64,000 nt of DNA from Allocoleopsis franciscana PCC 7113 (GCF_000317515.1 NC_019738.1:409501-473500); one strand, 5' to 3'; shown: positions 8,562 to 31,270, counted from the stretch's first letter. Notes: generated by a model not told the origin, from the sequence alone. Program-made: numbers and translations.

Positions 8562-9581
8562 GTGCCTGTGGTGACTCTGCGATCCACTCCCTATTTGCTT
8601 CTCCCGACCGACACCGGTAATCGCTATCTGCCGTTAGTCGGTAGCAATTGCTGGACAGTTGGTCGCAGTGATGATAATAATTTTGTGCTGTCTGATCGCT
8701 GGATTTCTCGAAATCACGCGATGTTACAGTGTACGGAGACTGGCGACTTTTATCTGATTGATTTAGGCAGCCGTAATGGCTCCTTTGTCAATGGAAGACG
8801 AGTCAGTATTCCGGTGACGATACGAAATGGCGACCGCCTGATGTTTGGTCAGACGGAAATGGAATTTCATTGCCCAGCTAACGACCGTCATTCGGATGTC
8901 CTCCAAGTGCCGGATAAAGAAACCCTGACTTCGACTTTGCATGTGCGTCGCTTGATTTCGGTGATGGTGATCGACATCCGCGACTTTACCGTGCTGACTC
9001 GCCAACTGGATGAAAAAATCCTCTCAGCCGTGATTGGAACTTGGTTTCGTCAGTCGGGAGATATTATCCGAAGATCTGGCAGTTGGGTCGATAAATATAT
9101 TGGTGATGCGGTCATGGCGATTTGGTTTCATAGCTCTCAAGGGGTTAGCCATGCTCATGGAGTTAGCTCTCAAGAAGCCCTGAATATTATGTGGGCGGTG
9201 AGTTCTCTGCATAAAATGACATCGGCGCTGAGTCAGCAGTACCCTTTGCCCTTCCCTTTACGAATTGGGACGGGACTCAATACAGGCTATGCCATGGTGG
9301 GGAACACCGGTAGTGGCGATCGCCCCGACTATACGGCGATTGGGGATACGGTTAATGCTGCCTTTCGTCTAGAATCCTCTACTAAGCAACTTGGCTTAGA
9401 TATTGCGTTGGGAGAAGACACATACCGTTACCTTTCAGTTATAGGTCAACAGCCGCTTGACTTTAAGCAGCATACGGTTCATCTCAAGGGATATGACTCT
9501 CCCACAACCACCTATGCTGGCACCTATGGGGATTTAGATCATTTCTTGCAGCTCAACGATCTAGGGCCACAAACTTGTTAA
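8562..9581 (+). CDS. FHA domain-adenylate/guanylate cyclase fusion
   Basis: A 339-residue signalling protein. Residues about 20-100 form a forkhead-associated (phosphothreonine-binding) domain: [18 protein letters not shown] and [12 protein letters not shown] are all present. Residues about 128-325 form a class III nucleotide cyclase domain. The two metal-binding aspartates are D138 (VIDIRDF) and D182 ([10 protein letters not shown]), with the later motifs [15 protein letters not shown] and [16 protein letters not shown]. cAMP production is the likely activity, but I cannot exclude cGMP. The start is GTG. Its 3' end overlaps the convergent lipB by 21 bp. Confidence 0.92.
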
Positions 9582-24926: not shown

Positions 24927-25577
24927 CTAACTGATGTCTCGTTCTTCTTGGCTCCAAGCACTGGTTTGTTGTTTGGCGTAAACGTTTTTCAGGTGTTTCT
25001 TGACGGTGTTGGTCGTAATATACAATTTGGCAGCGATTTCTTTATAAGAATAATTGGCACGACGGAGTGACCAAACTTCGGACTCACGAGGAGTCAAATT
25101 ATATTGTTGTGCTTCCGTGAACGCTGTATTTTTAGTAGACTGGCTCCTGTTCTCGAGGGTTATTAACAAGTTAGGCGCATCACTTTGAGCGAACTGGAGC
25201 CATCGAACCCTAACACGTAAAACCTCTGCATTATGCGTGTCTATTTCCGCTTCAATAATCATGGTTTTTTCTGGAAATAGCTCGCGGCTATCGAGCAATG
25301 ATTGGCAAATTCGCCAAATGGGTAGAGGGACTAACTTGGGTTGTAATTGCTCCGAGGAAAATTGCTGACAAATACGAAGCGCACGCTTATTCGCGTGAAT
25401 CAACTCTCCTTGTTCGGTCAAAATTAAAACACCGTCCATAAAACTTTCAATAATGGCTTGCAGCAAATCAGGGTGTTTTGAATGTTGAGAATAAGATGCT
25501 TTGAGCTGTTTGTCAGAAGAATTAAATGTTTCAACAGTTTTAAGGTGACGGTTCAGTTTAGCTGCCAACATGGACAT
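24927..25577 (-). CDS. PAS-LuxR transcriptional regulator, paralogue 1
   Basis: A 216-residue regulator. Residues about 38-145 form a PAS-like sensor (FMDGVLILTEQGELIHANKRALRIC). Residues 161-204 form a LuxR/FixJ-type helix-turn-helix (LTPRESEVWSL, YKEIAAKLYITTNTVKKHLK). There is no phosphoacceptor receiver and no acyl-homoserine-lactone domain. It aligns without gaps through the helix-turn-helix with the protein at 27868-28497. It is divergent from the gene at 26025 across a 447-bp region with phased repeats, and probably controls that promoter; this is inference. Confidence 0.88.
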   Translation of the reverse strand: MSMLAAKLNRHLKTVETFNSSDKQLKASYSQHSKHPDLLQAIIESFMDGVLILTEQGELIHANKRALRICQQFSSEQLQPKLVPLPIWRICQSLLDSRELFPEKTMIIEAEIDTHNAEVLRVRVRWLQFAQSDAPNLLITLENRSQSTKNTAFTEAQQYNLTPRESEVWSLRRANYSYKEIAAKLYITTNTVKKHLKNVYAKQQTSAWSQEERDIS

Positions 25578-25737
25578 CGTGAATCTCCTTCAAAATCACA
25601 ACTGAGGAGTCAAGCGATGGGAGACTCTTCTCAGTTGAGGGTTAAAGTCATTTTGCGTTTTGGTTGGGTGTAGCTACAAGGATTGAATCGGAGATTTCCC
25701 AAACTTACCGAATTCTGTTCTAGAAATAGAGGAAAGC

Positions 25738-25763
25738 TGAATGAGGCTGAAGTAAGGTGAAGT
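25738..25763. promoter_or_regulatory. Triple 10-bp direct repeat, copy 1
   Basis: TGAATG (25738), TGAAGT (25748) and TGAAGT (25758) recur exactly every 10 bp in the divergent promoter region, about 160 bp upstream of the PAS-LuxR gene. The same arrangement is found at 28648-28673 in front of the paralogous pair. The regular spacing places all three on one face of the helix, so this is a candidate regulator-binding site. Confidence 0.6.
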
Positions 25764-26024
25764 TTTTCAGCGATGTAAGGCTTTTGCTAATACAATACGA
25801 AATCATAGGATTTCAGGGTGTTGATCTAGATTGCTTCAGTGATTAGAGGCAATTAGTATCCGTAGTGACTGTTTAAACGAGGATTAAGTTTCGTTCTAAA
25901 ACACGAAATCTGTTTTTAGACGAGACGGATTGCATAAATAGTCAAAAAACAACGATAAGTACTACAGCTACGGAACACGAATTGACTCGACCAAAGTCTC
26001 TATTCGTTCAACAACCTACGGGAT
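25764..26024. other. Intergenic part of divergent promoter region 1
   Basis: AT-rich and non-coding. I can assign no -35/-10 pair with confidence. It carries the promoter of the gene starting at 26025. Confidence 0.35.
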
Positions 26025-27077
26025 ATGAATCCAGAATTGATCGATCAGTGGTTTCCGATTGAGCAACAGCGCAATTACGTTTCAATGCTCCTAAATCCCC
26101 GACGAGTGGGTTTAACACGTCGTCGAGCTGAATGTTTTGTGCGGCTGTGGACTTATCTACTACTCAAGCAGCAACAAGAATTAGGATCTCATTTGAGACA
26201 ACCGTTAACTCAATTGCAACTTCCAAAAGGTTATGTTGCTTGCACCCATCGGGAAGCAGCAGAATTGTTTTATGCTAACAAAGACCGAGGAAGCGATCGC
26301 GCGGCAGGTATGATGATTGATATCTTGGCTGCCCTTGGGTTAATTGATAAAGATTTTGATGGCAATACGATTTGTTTGCAGATTTCCTGTGTGCCGAACC
26401 TGCACGAATCCTTTGAGTCAGCACACCCAATAGAGTTCGTACTCGATGAATTTAACCCCCGAACCGACGCCGTTCCCGTGGCGAGTTTTCTTGCTCACAA
26501 CTACAACTGGCTAAACAAAACGACGGCAACTGTACCCCACAAGATTAAACAATTACTACGCTCTTGGGCAGTACAATATCCCACTGGGATGCGCGTGCTG
26601 CGTCGTTGTGATACCTCTCATCCGGTGGGGTTTTACGTGCTTTATCCCGTCGCGCCGGAATCTGAGGAAAAATTTTCTCTCCCTCCCGGAAGAAGTCTCC
26701 ATTTAAGTTCCGCCTCGGATATCGATCCTGTTCAAATGGCTATCCCCGGTAAGGATGACTGTACCTCAATTATGGTACGTAGCTGGATGATTGATGCGCC
26801 TTATAAAAATTGGCACAATGTGCATCGTTTTTTAGAAGATGTGCAGCATACCTTAAGGCGAATGCAAGCTGATTTTCCCAATCTTTGTGATTTCTACGCG
26901 CTCTTAATCCATCCTAGATATGAAGCACTAGCACAGGCTTTAGGGTTTCAAAAAATTGGGATCGATCCGAAGATAGCGGTCTACTGGTTGTACATGGCAG
27001 TCGATCAGTTTTTAGTTTTAGACATGGCAGAAATCGTTTCAAAGCTTGAGTTTTGCTACCCTTCCCCGGAATTTTAG
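26025..27077 (+). CDS. Unknown protein, winged-helix-like N-terminus and GNAT-like C-terminus, paralogue 1
   Basis: A 350-residue soluble protein that I cannot assign to a named family. Residues about 30-122 read as a winged-helix-type DNA-binding domain (LTRRRAECFVRLWTYLLLKQ, CTHREAAELF, RAAGMMIDILAALGLI). Residues about 135-345 recall a GNAT acyltransferase: VGFYVLYPVAP, IMVRSWMIDAPYKN, DFYALLIHPRYEALAQALGF and a closing YWLYMAVDQFL. It is paralogous to 28842-29852 along its whole length. Shared motifs include GSDRAAGMM and KGMRVLRRCD-type segments. It is divergent from a PAS-LuxR gene. Both domain calls are inference. Confidence 0.8.
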   Translation: MNPELIDQWFPIEQQRNYVSMLLNPRRVGLTRRRAECFVRLWTYLLLKQQQELGSHLRQPLTQLQLPKGYVACTHREAAELFYANKDRGSDRAAGMMIDILAALGLIDKDFDGNTICLQISCVPNLHESFESAHPIEFVLDEFNPRTDAVPVASFLAHNYNWLNKTTATVPHKIKQLLRSWAVQYPTGMRVLRRCDTSHPVGFYVLYPVAPESEEKFSLPPGRSLHLSSASDIDPVQMAIPGKDDCTSIMVRSWMIDAPYKNWHNVHRFLEDVQHTLRRMQADFPNLCDFYALLIHPRYEALAQALGFQKIGIDPKIAVYWLYMAVDQFLVLDMAEIVSKLEFCYPSPEF

Positions 27078-27078
27078 A

Positions 27079-27204
27079 TATCCTGTGAGAGTAGAAAGTA
27101 ACAGGATAAAAGACAGATCAGGCTCTATGAACTACCTGATCTATCCTGTCATACCTTTGTTTCTACCCACAATTTTTTTGAATAAGAGTACCCTCTGGGG
27201 TACT
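27079..27204. repeat. Three stem-loops between paralogue 1 and the Coq4-like gene
   Basis: TATCCTGT...ACAGGATA (27079-27108), AGATCAGG...CCTGATCT (27115-27142) and AGTACCC-TCTG-GGGTACT (27187-27204) follow one another. TATCCTGT is repeated at 27142. The first two could terminate transcription of the upstream gene (no strong T-run); the third could be an operator or attenuator for the gene at 27275. Confidence 0.5.
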
Positions 27205-27274
27205 ATCGCCGATTAGAAAAATTTTTTAATCTACAGACATATTAAAGACAACTCTAAGAAAGAAGGACTTTATC

Positions 27275-27784
27275 ATGCCATTCTGGTTGAAAATTATCTT
27301 GAAGCTTGCTCAGACGGTTAATCCTCAAATTTATCCTGAGCAAGAATTTACAATCACCCCAGAAGAATTGGAAGAATTACGTCAGTTACCGAATGGTACA
27401 TTAGGCCGTGAAGTTGCCTATTTCCTCGATCAAAATGGTTTCAACCCGATTAATAGTGGGGATTTGATTCAGCGAACTCATGATATTTGGCATGTTATTA
27501 CAGGCTTCACCTCCTCACCCCGTGATGAATTTCTGCTTCAGATCTTCACCCGTGCTCAAGTGTTTCGTCCAACGAGTGCGATCGTTGTCTTAGTAGGATG
27601 GCTAAGCGGTATGTGTAATTTTCAAGAAATTAGAAAAGTCCTCAAGATGAGTCGGCAATCCCAATCTTTAATTGATTGGGATATTCAATCCGATTGGCAT
27701 ACTCCATTGGTTGAAGTTCGGAAAAGGCTAAATATCATACCTCTAAATAATGAACAAAGCAGCGTCACTGAAACTCAAAAATAA
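27275..27784 (+). CDS. Coq4-like protein
   Basis: A 169-residue protein resembling Coq4, the quinone-biosynthesis protein that binds a metal and a lipid headgroup. The Coq4 metal motif is visible as HDIWHVITGF followed by the acidic RDEF (HDXXH...E). Cyanobacteria make plastoquinone rather than ubiquinone, and the role of their Coq4-like proteins is unclear to me. An AAGAAGGA element precedes the ATG at good spacing. It sits between the two PAS-LuxR modules and may be part of their regulon. Confidence 0.8.
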   Translation: MPFWLKIILKLAQTVNPQIYPEQEFTITPEELEELRQLPNGTLGREVAYFLDQNGFNPINSGDLIQRTHDIWHVITGFTSSPRDEFLLQIFTRAQVFRPTSAIVVLVGWLSGMCNFQEIRKVLKMSRQSQSLIDWDIQSDWHTPLVEVRKRLNIIPLNNEQSSVTETQK

Positions 27785-27867
27785 TTGGTGATGCAACCCC
27801 CACGACAGAGAGTTAAGCAACCGATGAATTGAACGAAAAAAAGGAGAAATTTAACGATGGCTTATTT

Positions 27868-28497
27868 TCAATTTTCTATAAATCCTTGTTGCTTGGCGTA
27901 AATATTCTTGATGTGCTTTTTGACAGTGTTGAGTGTAATGTACAATTTATCTGCAATTTCTGTGTAAGAAAGCTTAGATTGATGCAGTGACCAAACCTCT
28001 GCTTCACGGCGAGTTAAGCCATATTTTTTAGCGTCTGCAATCGCTTGTATTTTTCTAGCCTGATGTTGGTCTTCGATTGTCACCAAAAAGTAATGACAAG
28101 CACTTTCTTCTAATACCAACCAGCGAACTCGAATCCGAAAACTAAATGAATTTGCAAGTTTAATTTCATTGTTGACAACCATCTCTTGATCAGCAAATGG
28201 CTCAAGGCGAGCAAGCAACAATTCGCAAACACGCCAGATGGCTGATGGTACAAAATTCTTCTGTGATTGATTTGGGGCGAGTTGGTGGCAAATTTGACGC
28301 CCACATTCATTCGCATAAACCCACTCTCCTTGTTGAGTTAGAACCAAAACACCATCAACCAAGCCTTCGATAATATATTGCAACCAATAAGGTTGTTTAG
28401 ATTTTTGAGAGTATATCTCTTTAAAAGCTTTACTGGAATACTTGGATGTTTTTACTGTTTCGATATTGCTCTTGAGTTCACCACTGAAAATGACCAT
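27868..28497 (-). CDS. PAS-LuxR transcriptional regulator, paralogue 2
   Basis: A 209-residue regulator colinear with paralogue 1 and in the same residue register. The PAS-like part is at about 38-145 (LVDGVLVLTQQGEWVYANECG). The LuxR helix-turn-helix is at 161-204 (LTRREAEVWSL, YTEIADKLYITLNTVKKHIK). The recognition helices are nearly identical, so the two may bind the same DNA motif, while the sensor halves have diverged. It is divergent from the gene at 28842 across 344 bp. Confidence 0.88.
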   Translation of the reverse strand: MVIFSGELKSNIETVKTSKYSSKAFKEIYSQKSKQPYWLQYIIEGLVDGVLVLTQQGEWVYANECGRQICHQLAPNQSQKNFVPSAIWRVCELLLARLEPFADQEMVVNNEIKLANSFSFRIRVRWLVLEESACHYFLVTIEDQHQARKIQAIADAKKYGLTRREAEVWSLHQSKLSYTEIADKLYITLNTVKKHIKNIYAKQQGFIEN

Positions 28498-28628
28498 TTT
28501 GAATGTTCTTGAGGATTGTCAACAAAAAAGTTAAGTTGCCGCAAGACTGACCCGTTGAGTATTACTGTCATTCTGCTTTCTGCATCGATGTATCTGCCAT
28601 GAGTCTGTTGTAGATGCCTCAAACGGCC

Positions 28629-28673
28629 TGAAGTGGGTGCTGTCAGATGAAGGGGGGTGAAGTGGCCTGAAGT
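28629..28673. promoter_or_regulatory. Triple 10-bp direct repeat, copy 2, with an extra half-site
   Basis: TGAAGG (28648), TGAAGT (28658) and TGAAGT (28668) repeat every 10 bp; a further TGAAGT lies at 28629. The triple begins about 150 bp upstream of the PAS-LuxR start, nearly the same distance as copy 1 (25738-25763). GGCCTGAAGT occurs twice (28625 and 28664). It is a candidate operator shared by the two divergent modules. Confidence 0.6.
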
Positions 28674-28841
28674 AGAGAGAGTTTTTTATTCTTATCAGAG
28701 TTTTGAAAAGATTCGTATCGCCTATTAGTAGCGAGAGTAACAAAATAGATGAGGCAATCTATCCTCTAGGTTACTTAATGCTTAGAACACTGAATTTCGT
28801 AGTAACATTTTAGGAACCCAAAGCGCAGCAACCTGGATGAT

Positions 28842-29852
28842 ATGGGGCCAGAAGATATCAATGAGTGTTTCCCGATTGAACAACAACAAAAATACATCTC
28901 CAGGATTTGCGAACAGATTACCCTAACGGCGCGTCAGGCTAGATGTTATCTCCGATTGTGGGCTTATCTTATAGTCAAGCAGCGAAAGCTGGGAGAACAC
29001 CTGAAATTTCCACTTACAGAATTGCCACTACCCGATGGTTTTGTCTCTTGTACTCTTCAGGAAGCCGCTACACTTTTCTATTGTGACCAAGATCAGGGAA
29101 GCGATCGCGCGGCGGGAATGATGCTGGATAAGCTGCGTGATCGCGGACTTATCCAGAAAAAATTTGATGGCAATAGTCTTTGTATTCAAATCCTCTATCA
29201 GCTCAAGCCACCGCCATCTCCTCAACCTGTAGAGGTGGATGCTTTCCACCACAGCGATGCTGTCTTCGTGGCAGAAGTTCTATCTAACCTCTATAGCTGG
29301 CTAAACAGCGACACCGCTGCTGTTAAACTCAAGATTGTTAATGTCCTGCGCCGTTGGGTCAAGGAATACCCCAAAGGTATGCGGGTATTGCGTCGTTGTG
29401 ATAACTCCAAGCCTGTAGGATTTTACCTTTTGTATCCTACCGCTGAAGATTGTGAGAAAAATTTCTTTCTCCCTCCCAGCAAAACCCTGCATTTAGGTTC
29501 TAATGCTGAGATCGATCCACTGCAAATCGCTATCCCTCCCGATCCAGATTGCTGTAGTGTCTTTGTACGGAGTTGGAAAATCGATACTCCCTATCAGACT
29601 ACAGAGAATGTGTGTAGATTCTTGAAGGATACGCAAGAAACCTTAAGACAAATGCAGGTGGACTTTCCCAACCTATGCGATTTATATGTGATGATTCTCC
29701 ATCCCGTCTACAGCTATGAGAGCTTAGCAATGGCGTTGGGGTTTGAAAGAATCGGCTCAGATTCACTATCACCAAGTTACTGGATGTACAAACCCGTCAA
29801 CCCGTTTTTGGACTTAGACATGGAAAAAGTTCTCTCCCAGCTTGATTTTTAG
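28842..29852 (+). CDS. Unknown protein, winged-helix-like N-terminus and GNAT-like C-terminus, paralogue 2
   Basis: A 336-residue paralogue of the protein at 26025. Shared landmarks are the N-terminal CFPIEQQQKYIS, LTARQARCYLRLWAYLIVKQ, GSDRAAGMMLDKLRDRGLI, GMRVLRRCDNSKPVGFYLLYP, VRSWKIDTPYQT, MQVDFPNLCDLY and a C-terminal ALGFERIG...YWMYKPVNPFLDLDM. The last block strongly resembles the end of a GNAT domain. The catalytic activity and acceptor are unknown. It has its own PAS-LuxR partner on the other strand. Confidence 0.8.
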   Translation: MGPEDINECFPIEQQQKYISRICEQITLTARQARCYLRLWAYLIVKQRKLGEHLKFPLTELPLPDGFVSCTLQEAATLFYCDQDQGSDRAAGMMLDKLRDRGLIQKKFDGNSLCIQILYQLKPPPSPQPVEVDAFHHSDAVFVAEVLSNLYSWLNSDTAAVKLKIVNVLRRWVKEYPKGMRVLRRCDNSKPVGFYLLYPTAEDCEKNFFLPPSKTLHLGSNAEIDPLQIAIPPDPDCCSVFVRSWKIDTPYQTTENVCRFLKDTQETLRQMQVDFPNLCDLYVMILHPVYSYESLAMALGFERIGSDSLSPSYWMYKPVNPFLDLDMEKVLSQLDF

Positions 29853-30187: not shown

Positions 30188-31270
30188 ATGACAACCACAT
30201 TACAGCGTCGCGAATCTGCGAACGTGTGGGAACGGTTTTGCGAGTGGGTCACTAGCACCAACAACCGCCTCTATGTAGGCTGGTTCGGTGTCCTGATGAT
30301 TCCTACCCTGCTAACTGCCACTACCTGCTTTATCATCGCCTTCATCGCTGCTCCTCCTGTGGACATCGATGGTATCCGTGAGCCTGTTGCTGGCTCTCTG
30401 CTGTTTGGTAACAACATCATCAGTGGAGCCGTTGTTCCTTCTTCTAACGCCATCGGCTTGCACTTCTACCCAATTTGGGAAGCAGCTAGCTTAGACGAGT
30501 GGCTTTACAACGGTGGCCCTTACCAGTTGGTAATTTTCCACTTCCTCATCGGCGTCTTCTGCTACATGGGACGTGAGTGGGAACTCAGCTACCGCTTAGG
30601 GATGCGCCCTTGGATTGCTGTTGCTTACAGCGCTCCTGTGGCGGCTGCAACCGCTGTATTCCTGATTTACCCCATCGGACAAGGTTCTTTCTCTGATGGT
30701 ATGCCCCTGGGCATCTCTGGAACCTTCAACTTCATGTTCGTGTTCCAAGCTGAGCACAACATCCTGATGCACCCCTTCCACCAACTCGGTGTGGCTGGTG
30801 TGTTCGGCGGTTCCTTGTTCTCTGCAATGCACGGAAGTCTCGTTACCAGCTCTCTGGTTCGTGAGACAACCGAAACCGAATCTCAAAACTACGGTTACAA
30901 GTTCGGTCAAGAAGAAGAAACCTACAACATCGTTGCTGCTCACGGTTACTTCGGTCGGTTGATTTTCCAATATGCTTCTTTCAACAACAGCCGTAGCTTG
31001 CACTTCTTCCTCGCTGCTTGGCCTGTAGTTGGCATTTGGTTCACCGCTTTGGGCATCAGCACCATGGCGTTCAACCTGAATGGATTCAACTTCAACCAGT
31101 CCATCATCGACTCTCAAGGTCGCGTGATTGGTACCTGGGCTGATGTACTCAACCGCGCTAACTTGGGATTTGAAGTAATGCACGAGCGTAACGCTCACAA
31201 CTTCCCCCTCGACTTGGCGGCGGGTGAAGCGGCTCCTGTGGCTCTAACCGCTCCTGTCATCAATGGCTAA
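30188..31270 (+). CDS. psbA: Photosystem II reaction centre protein D1
   Basis: D1 core protein of photosystem II, 360 residues, five membrane helices. Functional residues are in register: Y161, D170, H190, H198, S264, H332, E333, H337, D342, and the processing site after A344. Residue 130 is Glu (YMGRE), as in the high-light/stress isoforms (D1:2, PsbA2/PsbA3 type), not the low-light Gln form. Codon use is strongly biased towards C-ending codons, typical of a highly expressed gene. It is monocistronic, with its own terminator. Confidence 0.99.

Follow-up and report, generated by a model that had tools for sequence, protein, structure and literature searches.

We analyzed a 64,000-nucleotide stretch of DNA (the window) from Allocoleopsis franciscana PCC 7113 (NC_019738.1:409501-473500), which is part of a cyanobacterial chromosome in a 7.97-Mb assembly. 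The subject of this work is a duplicated gene module at positions 24,927 to 29,852, counted from the first letter of the window. The five open reading frames (ORFs) that a preliminary description had placed here were all found to be open on their strands; start codons were assigned from homology and as first starts. They form two divergent pairs, each consisting of a PAS-LuxR gene on the minus strand and a gene of an undescribed family (here called unk) on the plus strand, and the whole module is duplicated around a coq4-family gene. In pair A, LuxA (24927..25577, minus strand), a regulator of 216 amino acids (aa) with PAS and LuxR-type helix-turn-helix (HTH) domains according to Pfam, faces UnkA (26025..27077, plus strand), a 350-aa protein predicted from AlphaFold2 (AF2) models and fold searches to combine a winged helix with a degenerate GNAT fold. 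Pair B consists of the second PAS-LuxR regulator, LuxB (27868..28497, minus strand; 209 aa; Pfam), and UnkB (28842..29852, plus strand; 336 aa), which by alignment is the second winged-helix and GNAT-fold protein. In the tree, UnkA is the slower-evolving and UnkB the faster-evolving copy. Between the pairs lies the gene of a 169-aa Coq4-family protein (27275..27784, plus strand).

LuxA and LuxB could be aligned over 204 aa without gaps at 47% identity (E 2e-67), as had been claimed. For the two Unk proteins, the preliminary description had noted motifs shared along their length; the relatedness was correct, but the wording understated it, since UnkA and UnkB are 53% identical over their whole length (345 aa, E 2e-131). 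The divergent geometry was also the same in both copies, with intergenic gaps of 447 bp (pair A) and 344 bp (pair B), and the two intergenic regions can be aligned to each other. The GerE HTH exceeded the Pfam cut-off of 23.5 bits in both LuxA (34.9 bits) and LuxB (30.0 bits), and PAS_8 was matched in LuxA at 23.6 bits (cut-off 21.8) and below the threshold in LuxB. The gene described as Coq4-like indeed encodes a PF05019 protein (46.9 bits, cut-off 22.9), and its sequence, read directly, contains HDxxH-x11-E (HDIWHVITGFTSSPRDE), the Coq4 metal motif.

Sequence searches with the Unk proteins gave no match in Pfam, NCBIfam or the PDB sequences, and no description of the family was found among open-licence papers, in agreement with the earlier suggestion of an undescribed family. 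Of 386 cyanobacterial genomes sampled, 31 contained a homologue, and in 26 of these the match covered at least 150 residues; within the order, 79 of 389 genomes had one. These genomes are related to one another, so that the counts given here and below are not independent. None was found in the phages searched. One homologue is plasmid-borne (Pseudanabaena), and in complete genomes the gene is chromosomal. As judged from these searches, Unk is an undescribed family spread over many cyanobacterial genera. An alignment of 35 homologues was used as the basis for modeling and for conservation counts, and the tree of Unk proteins contained two clear clades. The A. franciscana genome has two copies of unk only, both in the window, and one more close PAS-LuxR gene elsewhere. 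A genus-mate (G464) and Coleofasciculus sp. S288 share the duplication. In the tree, UnkB falls together with the second S288 copy (support 99/96), and the duplication is therefore older than the split from this strain.

The structure of the family was assessed on predicted (AF2) models. The model from the 35-sequence alignment had a mean predicted local distance difference test (pLDDT) score of 83.5, and residues about 133-332 were assigned a GNAT alpha/beta fold in the fold search (Z about 14). The first 124 residues, modeled alone, gave a winged helix with a mean pLDDT of 84.6, which showed the helix-helix-recognition helix arrangement and beta wing of solved winged-helix domains. The closest of these were RepA_N initiator domains (best Z 9.3, 2.4 Å over 92 residues), which exceed the DALI-like Z of 8 used as the threshold for a winged helix, and LexA was matched with Z 7.8. 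The winged helix and the GNAT-like fold proposed in the preliminary description were thus both recovered, and the C-terminal GNAT-like signature LGF...YWMY is conserved in homologues. The coenzyme A (CoA) pyrophosphate motif R/Q-x-x-G-x-G/A was sought at its position between beta4 and alpha3 and was found in none of the 35 homologues. The best-conserved parts are the winged helix and beta2-beta3, and the segment where a CoA loop would lie is among the least conserved. The earlier guess at the fold was thus right on these models, and that of an acyltransferase is probably wrong. Two cysteines, Cys73 and Cys246, are invariant, and 32 of 35 homologues also have Cys288; given these residues, a thiol signal is conceivable.

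A TGAAGT repeat was first noticed by reading the regions upstream of unk. It belongs to an array of 10-bp direct repeats, TGAAGYnnGG TGAAGT, which is found upstream of nearly every homologue and whose units run on 5' in 10-bp phase. In the window, the putative operator array A (TGAATGAGGC TGAAGTAAGG TGAAGT; 25738..25763, plus strand) lies 72 bp from a promoter-like element described below, and the putative array B (TGAAGGGGGG TGAAGTGGCC TGAAGT; 28648..28673, plus strand) lies 62 bp, in 10-bp phase, from its own. Two-repeat matches in 1.04 Mb of loci numbered 39, of which 38 were just upstream of unk, and the same scan of 27 orphan PAS-LuxR loci gave no match. Arrays were then scored by the best TGAAGT-n4-TGAAGT pair (maximum 12), with a threshold of at least 11/12. 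This score was reached by the upstream regions of 29 of 35 loci and by 0.43% of dinucleotide shuffles, and by none of 35 downstream regions, 29 upstream regions of orphan LuxR genes or 12 of psbA. Among 39 further loci outside the defining set, 31 reached the 11/12 threshold and 36 scored 10/12 or more. When a sequence model of the array was scanned over 52 genomes, the only sites with E ≤ 1e-3 were those of unk genes (one decayed copy counted), most of which were in the training set of the model, and one coq4 site, coq4 sites being outside that set. The best site in genomes without unk had an E value of 0.006, and weak sites in the A. franciscana genome were at background level. In one genome (G312, L073 around 8583-8934), unk is a truncated remnant, and three array units and a divergent yiaA gene are retained.

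The preliminary description had linked unk to the PAS-LuxR genes. Where both genes occur in a genome, they are divergent neighbors in 11 of 12 sampled cases, and to this extent the linkage was confirmed; it does not extend to a whole clade that is devoid of PAS-LuxR. In clade 1, the gene order is cofG (minus), PAS-LuxR (minus) and unk (plus), often followed by psbA (plus) and aroC. In clade 2, no LuxR gene adjoins unk, and the divergent gene often encodes YiaA (PF05360). PAS-LuxR genes are also found in the absence of unk. The LuxR gene thus appears to be one target or partner among several, together with those of YiaA and Coq4, and not an obligatory one. In the PAS-LuxR family, C70 (47 of 52) and C91 (49 of 52; LuxA numbering) are near-invariant in a short PAS region, which suggests a redox or metal sensor.

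A second conserved element, RCAATGAG, is located 5' of the repeats at 23, 33, 43, 53, 63 or 73 bp, and in 33 of 34 later loci having the element its distance from the array was 2 or 3 + 10n bp. The composite of RCAATGAG and CATTnT, the latter 27 bp further 5', gave 21 matches in 1.44 Mb, all upstream of unk. Read leftward, this composite is TTGYnn, 17/18 bp and nAnAAT. At many loci a leader comes next, which contains a ribosome site and runs up to the LuxR or YiaA start; we therefore infer that the composite is the promoter of the divergent gene and that the array is an upstream site on the same helical face. In the window, the putative LuxA promoter element (25649..25682, minus strand), recognized as a conserved composite, reads leftward as a -35-like TTGTAG, about 17-18 bp and a -10-like CAAAAT, and is followed by a 79-nt leader, a GAAGGAG ribosome site and the LuxA ATG. 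The putative LuxB element (28569..28603, minus strand), read by comparison, has diverged (CATTCTG ... GCCATGAG on the plus strand) with the 27-bp spacing kept. The array was also considered as lying at the -35 region of a promoter of unk itself. This was dropped, since the offset statistic of the downstream -10 was weak and the upstream composite fits the geometry better.

Further arrays were seen in genome G360, which has six PAS-LuxR copies and carries good three-unit TGAAGT arrays upstream of AAA_35-domain genes (L242:3825-3855 and L243:3105-3135). These were discounted as regulon members because the RCAATGAG element is missing there. Seven orphan PAS-LuxR genes are adjoined by large genes of one family.

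The close Coq4 subfamily to which the window protein belongs was present in 8 of 386 genomes, all among the 26 with unk (p 1.4e-10 unadjusted for relatedness, about 1e-4 by genus). Coq4 is encoded near unk in A. franciscana (G000), G305 and G118, as well as in two later genomes (L281 and L288). In five genomes of another genus, coq4 is located elsewhere and adjoins a small LuxR gene, and upstream of all five the same array is found in trans, exactly 73 bp from the same promoter element. No PAS-LuxR match was obtained in these five genomes, and the array there is therefore not a PAS-LuxR operator. In one of them (G354), the array is weakened and the coq4 frame is interrupted by a stop. The lipid or quinone link proposed in the preliminary description thus gained support from both the distribution of the Coq4 subfamily and the trans arrays; the host organisms of this Coq4-like protein are not known to make ubiquinone. 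In genus g11 (L055-L060), the gene divergent from unk encodes what we take, from reading the sequence, to be a beta-ketoacyl-ACP synthase III, which together with Coq4 hints at a lipid or quinone theme. Beyond the coq4 arrays lies a gene (L208:6626-7348 and L210:6863-7582) whose product, about 240 aa long and putatively exported, had no Pfam family above the cut-off and could be co-regulated.

Computation gave the fold models, the loss of the CoA loop, the association with coq4 and the array, which is phased, conserved and nearly unique in the genome; that the Unk protein binds the array, and with what sign and in response to which signal it regulates, we infer. The Unk proteins are likely to be one-component regulators that bind the array, activate the divergent gene and coq4, and control their own gene. 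The N-terminal winged helix would contact the 10-bp direct repeats upstream of its own gene, and the protein would oligomerize along the array. The GNAT-fold domain, having lost the canonical CoA loop, would probably serve in ligand or redox (thiol) sensing and in oligomerization. Since the array lies 5' of the divergent promoter (that of PAS-LuxR here and of YiaA elsewhere), with the -35 region on the same helical face, the bound protein would most likely activate this promoter, and the unk gene itself may be repressed or tuned. Coq4 would be a further target, together with the small LuxR gene, through the trans array and promoter element. More tentatively, a fuller scheme can be envisaged, in which Unk would represent a new class of regulator, a pseudo-enzyme (a GNAT domain lacking its cofactor loop) that assembles cooperatively on the helically phased 10-bp array. 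The units of the array would range from weak to strong and extend from a high-affinity end to the promoter, so that in evolution the promoter distance could change by whole turns only, and the few genes controlled (PAS-LuxR, Coq4-like and YiaA) would be linked to quinones or lipids.

Several observations weigh against Unk as an activator of the divergent promoter. A generic promoter scan of the window region gave nothing above chance, and the -35 and -10 matches are modest. A clear array is wanting in 3 of the 35 first loci and 3 of the 39 later ones, and at some loci the array is just 21-40 bp before the start codon, a position that fits a repressor site for unk equally well. At the g11 coq4 loci, an exported-protein gene flanks the array opposite coq4 and is a possible alternative target. 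None of the fold comparisons points to a ligand. Moreover, another factor could be the array binder. In that case the array would be the operator of, for example, PAS-LuxR or an SphR-like response regulator, and unk merely a regulated gene. PAS-LuxR does adjoin the array in one clade, and the SphR site consists of CTTAACCT direct repeats separated by a 3-bp linker (PMC1906773), which superficially resembles the array complement CTTCACC. The array is, however, also present in lineages without a detected PAS-LuxR gene and at no orphan PAS-LuxR, and was therefore rejected as the LuxR operator. A Pho box was likewise discarded, because both the sequence and the period (10 bp, not 11 bp) differ. 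Strong sites occur almost once per genome, with none comparable where unk is missing, unlike a general regulon. Overall, we consider it unlikely that the array is the operator of another protein.

It is still less probable that Unk is an active acyltransferase, brought by its winged helix to DNA or to a LuxR partner which it acetylates. The GNAT fold and the conserved LGF...YWMY signature would suit such an enzyme, but the RxxGxG/A motif is absent from all 35 homologues at its position in a segment that is among the most variable, and the LuxR partner is missing from half of the family. The module as a light-stress switch for the neighboring psbA likewise has little to recommend it and was rejected. 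Although psbA is downstream in 12 loci including the window, which has cofG upstream of the module, 13 of 20 loci that lack the module there have cofG and psbA directly adjoining in divergent orientation, no array was found at psbA (0/12 upstream regions), and the linked psbA genes encode more than one D1 type, with E or Q at residue 130. Insertion of the module into the cofG-psbA gap is most likely, so that the adjacency is probably inherited and requires no functional reason. Very improbable is a GNAT toxin with an antitoxin, or a RepA_N-type plasmid replication initiator that is now chromosomal. The fold resembles a GNAT toxin entry and, in the winged helix, RepA_N initiators; the direct repeats are iteron-like, and one homologue is carried on a plasmid. 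A conserved small partner is absent, however, with the partner gene differing between the clades, and the CoA loop is missing. No homologue matches the RepA_N Pfam family (PF06970), the gene is chromosomal in complete genomes, and the array is phased to the promoter element.

The psbA gene of the window (30188-31270) encodes a D1 protein identical to that of a distant copy on the same chromosome (G000:C1:1679333-1680412). This genome has six D1 genes, one of which is only 84% identical. In genome G019 (L256:7502-8666), the cofG-adjoining psbA is in two pieces with about 227 bp between them, possibly owing to an insertion or intron.

With the reading of Unk as an array-binding regulator, an unannotated family of many cyanobacterial genera can be assigned a putative function together with a DNA target and a small set of regulated genes, and an orphan Coq4-like protein is tied to a regulatory circuit. 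The family is a clear candidate for a transcription regulator in which an enzyme fold has taken on the role of a sensor. Across many genera the array-promoter distance differs by whole 10-bp steps only, which offers a natural experiment on helical phasing.

In comparison with known systems, the C-terminal domain of Unk shares its fold with GNAT acyltransferases such as archaeal Ard1 (4pv6) and the GNAT-like domain of CurA (2ree; Z about 14), but differs from them in the missing CoA pyrophosphate loop, the identity of about 10-14% and the fusion to a winged helix. LysR-like one-component regulators are encoded divergently, with the gene facing its target and the operator shared in between; the present module has this arrangement with an unrelated protein family. 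Cyanobacterial PedR, a LuxR-type redox regulator, is related to LuxA and LuxB through its HTH (21-24 bits against the NCBIfam PedR model) and shares the redox theme, whereas its model spans 74 positions, LuxA and LuxB are far below its 120-bit cut-off, and they have an additional PAS-like region. The N-terminal domain of RepA_N initiators (4pt7, 4pql and 5kbj) is the best fold match for the winged helix of Unk. These initiators bind several Rep boxes (PMC5703833), whereas Unk has no RepA_N Pfam match, is chromosomal, carries a GNAT-like C-terminal domain and is associated with repeats phased to a promoter-like element. Activators of the PhoB/SphR type use direct-repeat Pho boxes in register with the promoter (PMC1906773), and direct repeats in promoter register are also found here. 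Unlike them, Unk is not a response regulator, and its array has a 10-bp instead of an 11-bp period, a different sequence and nearly one site per genome.

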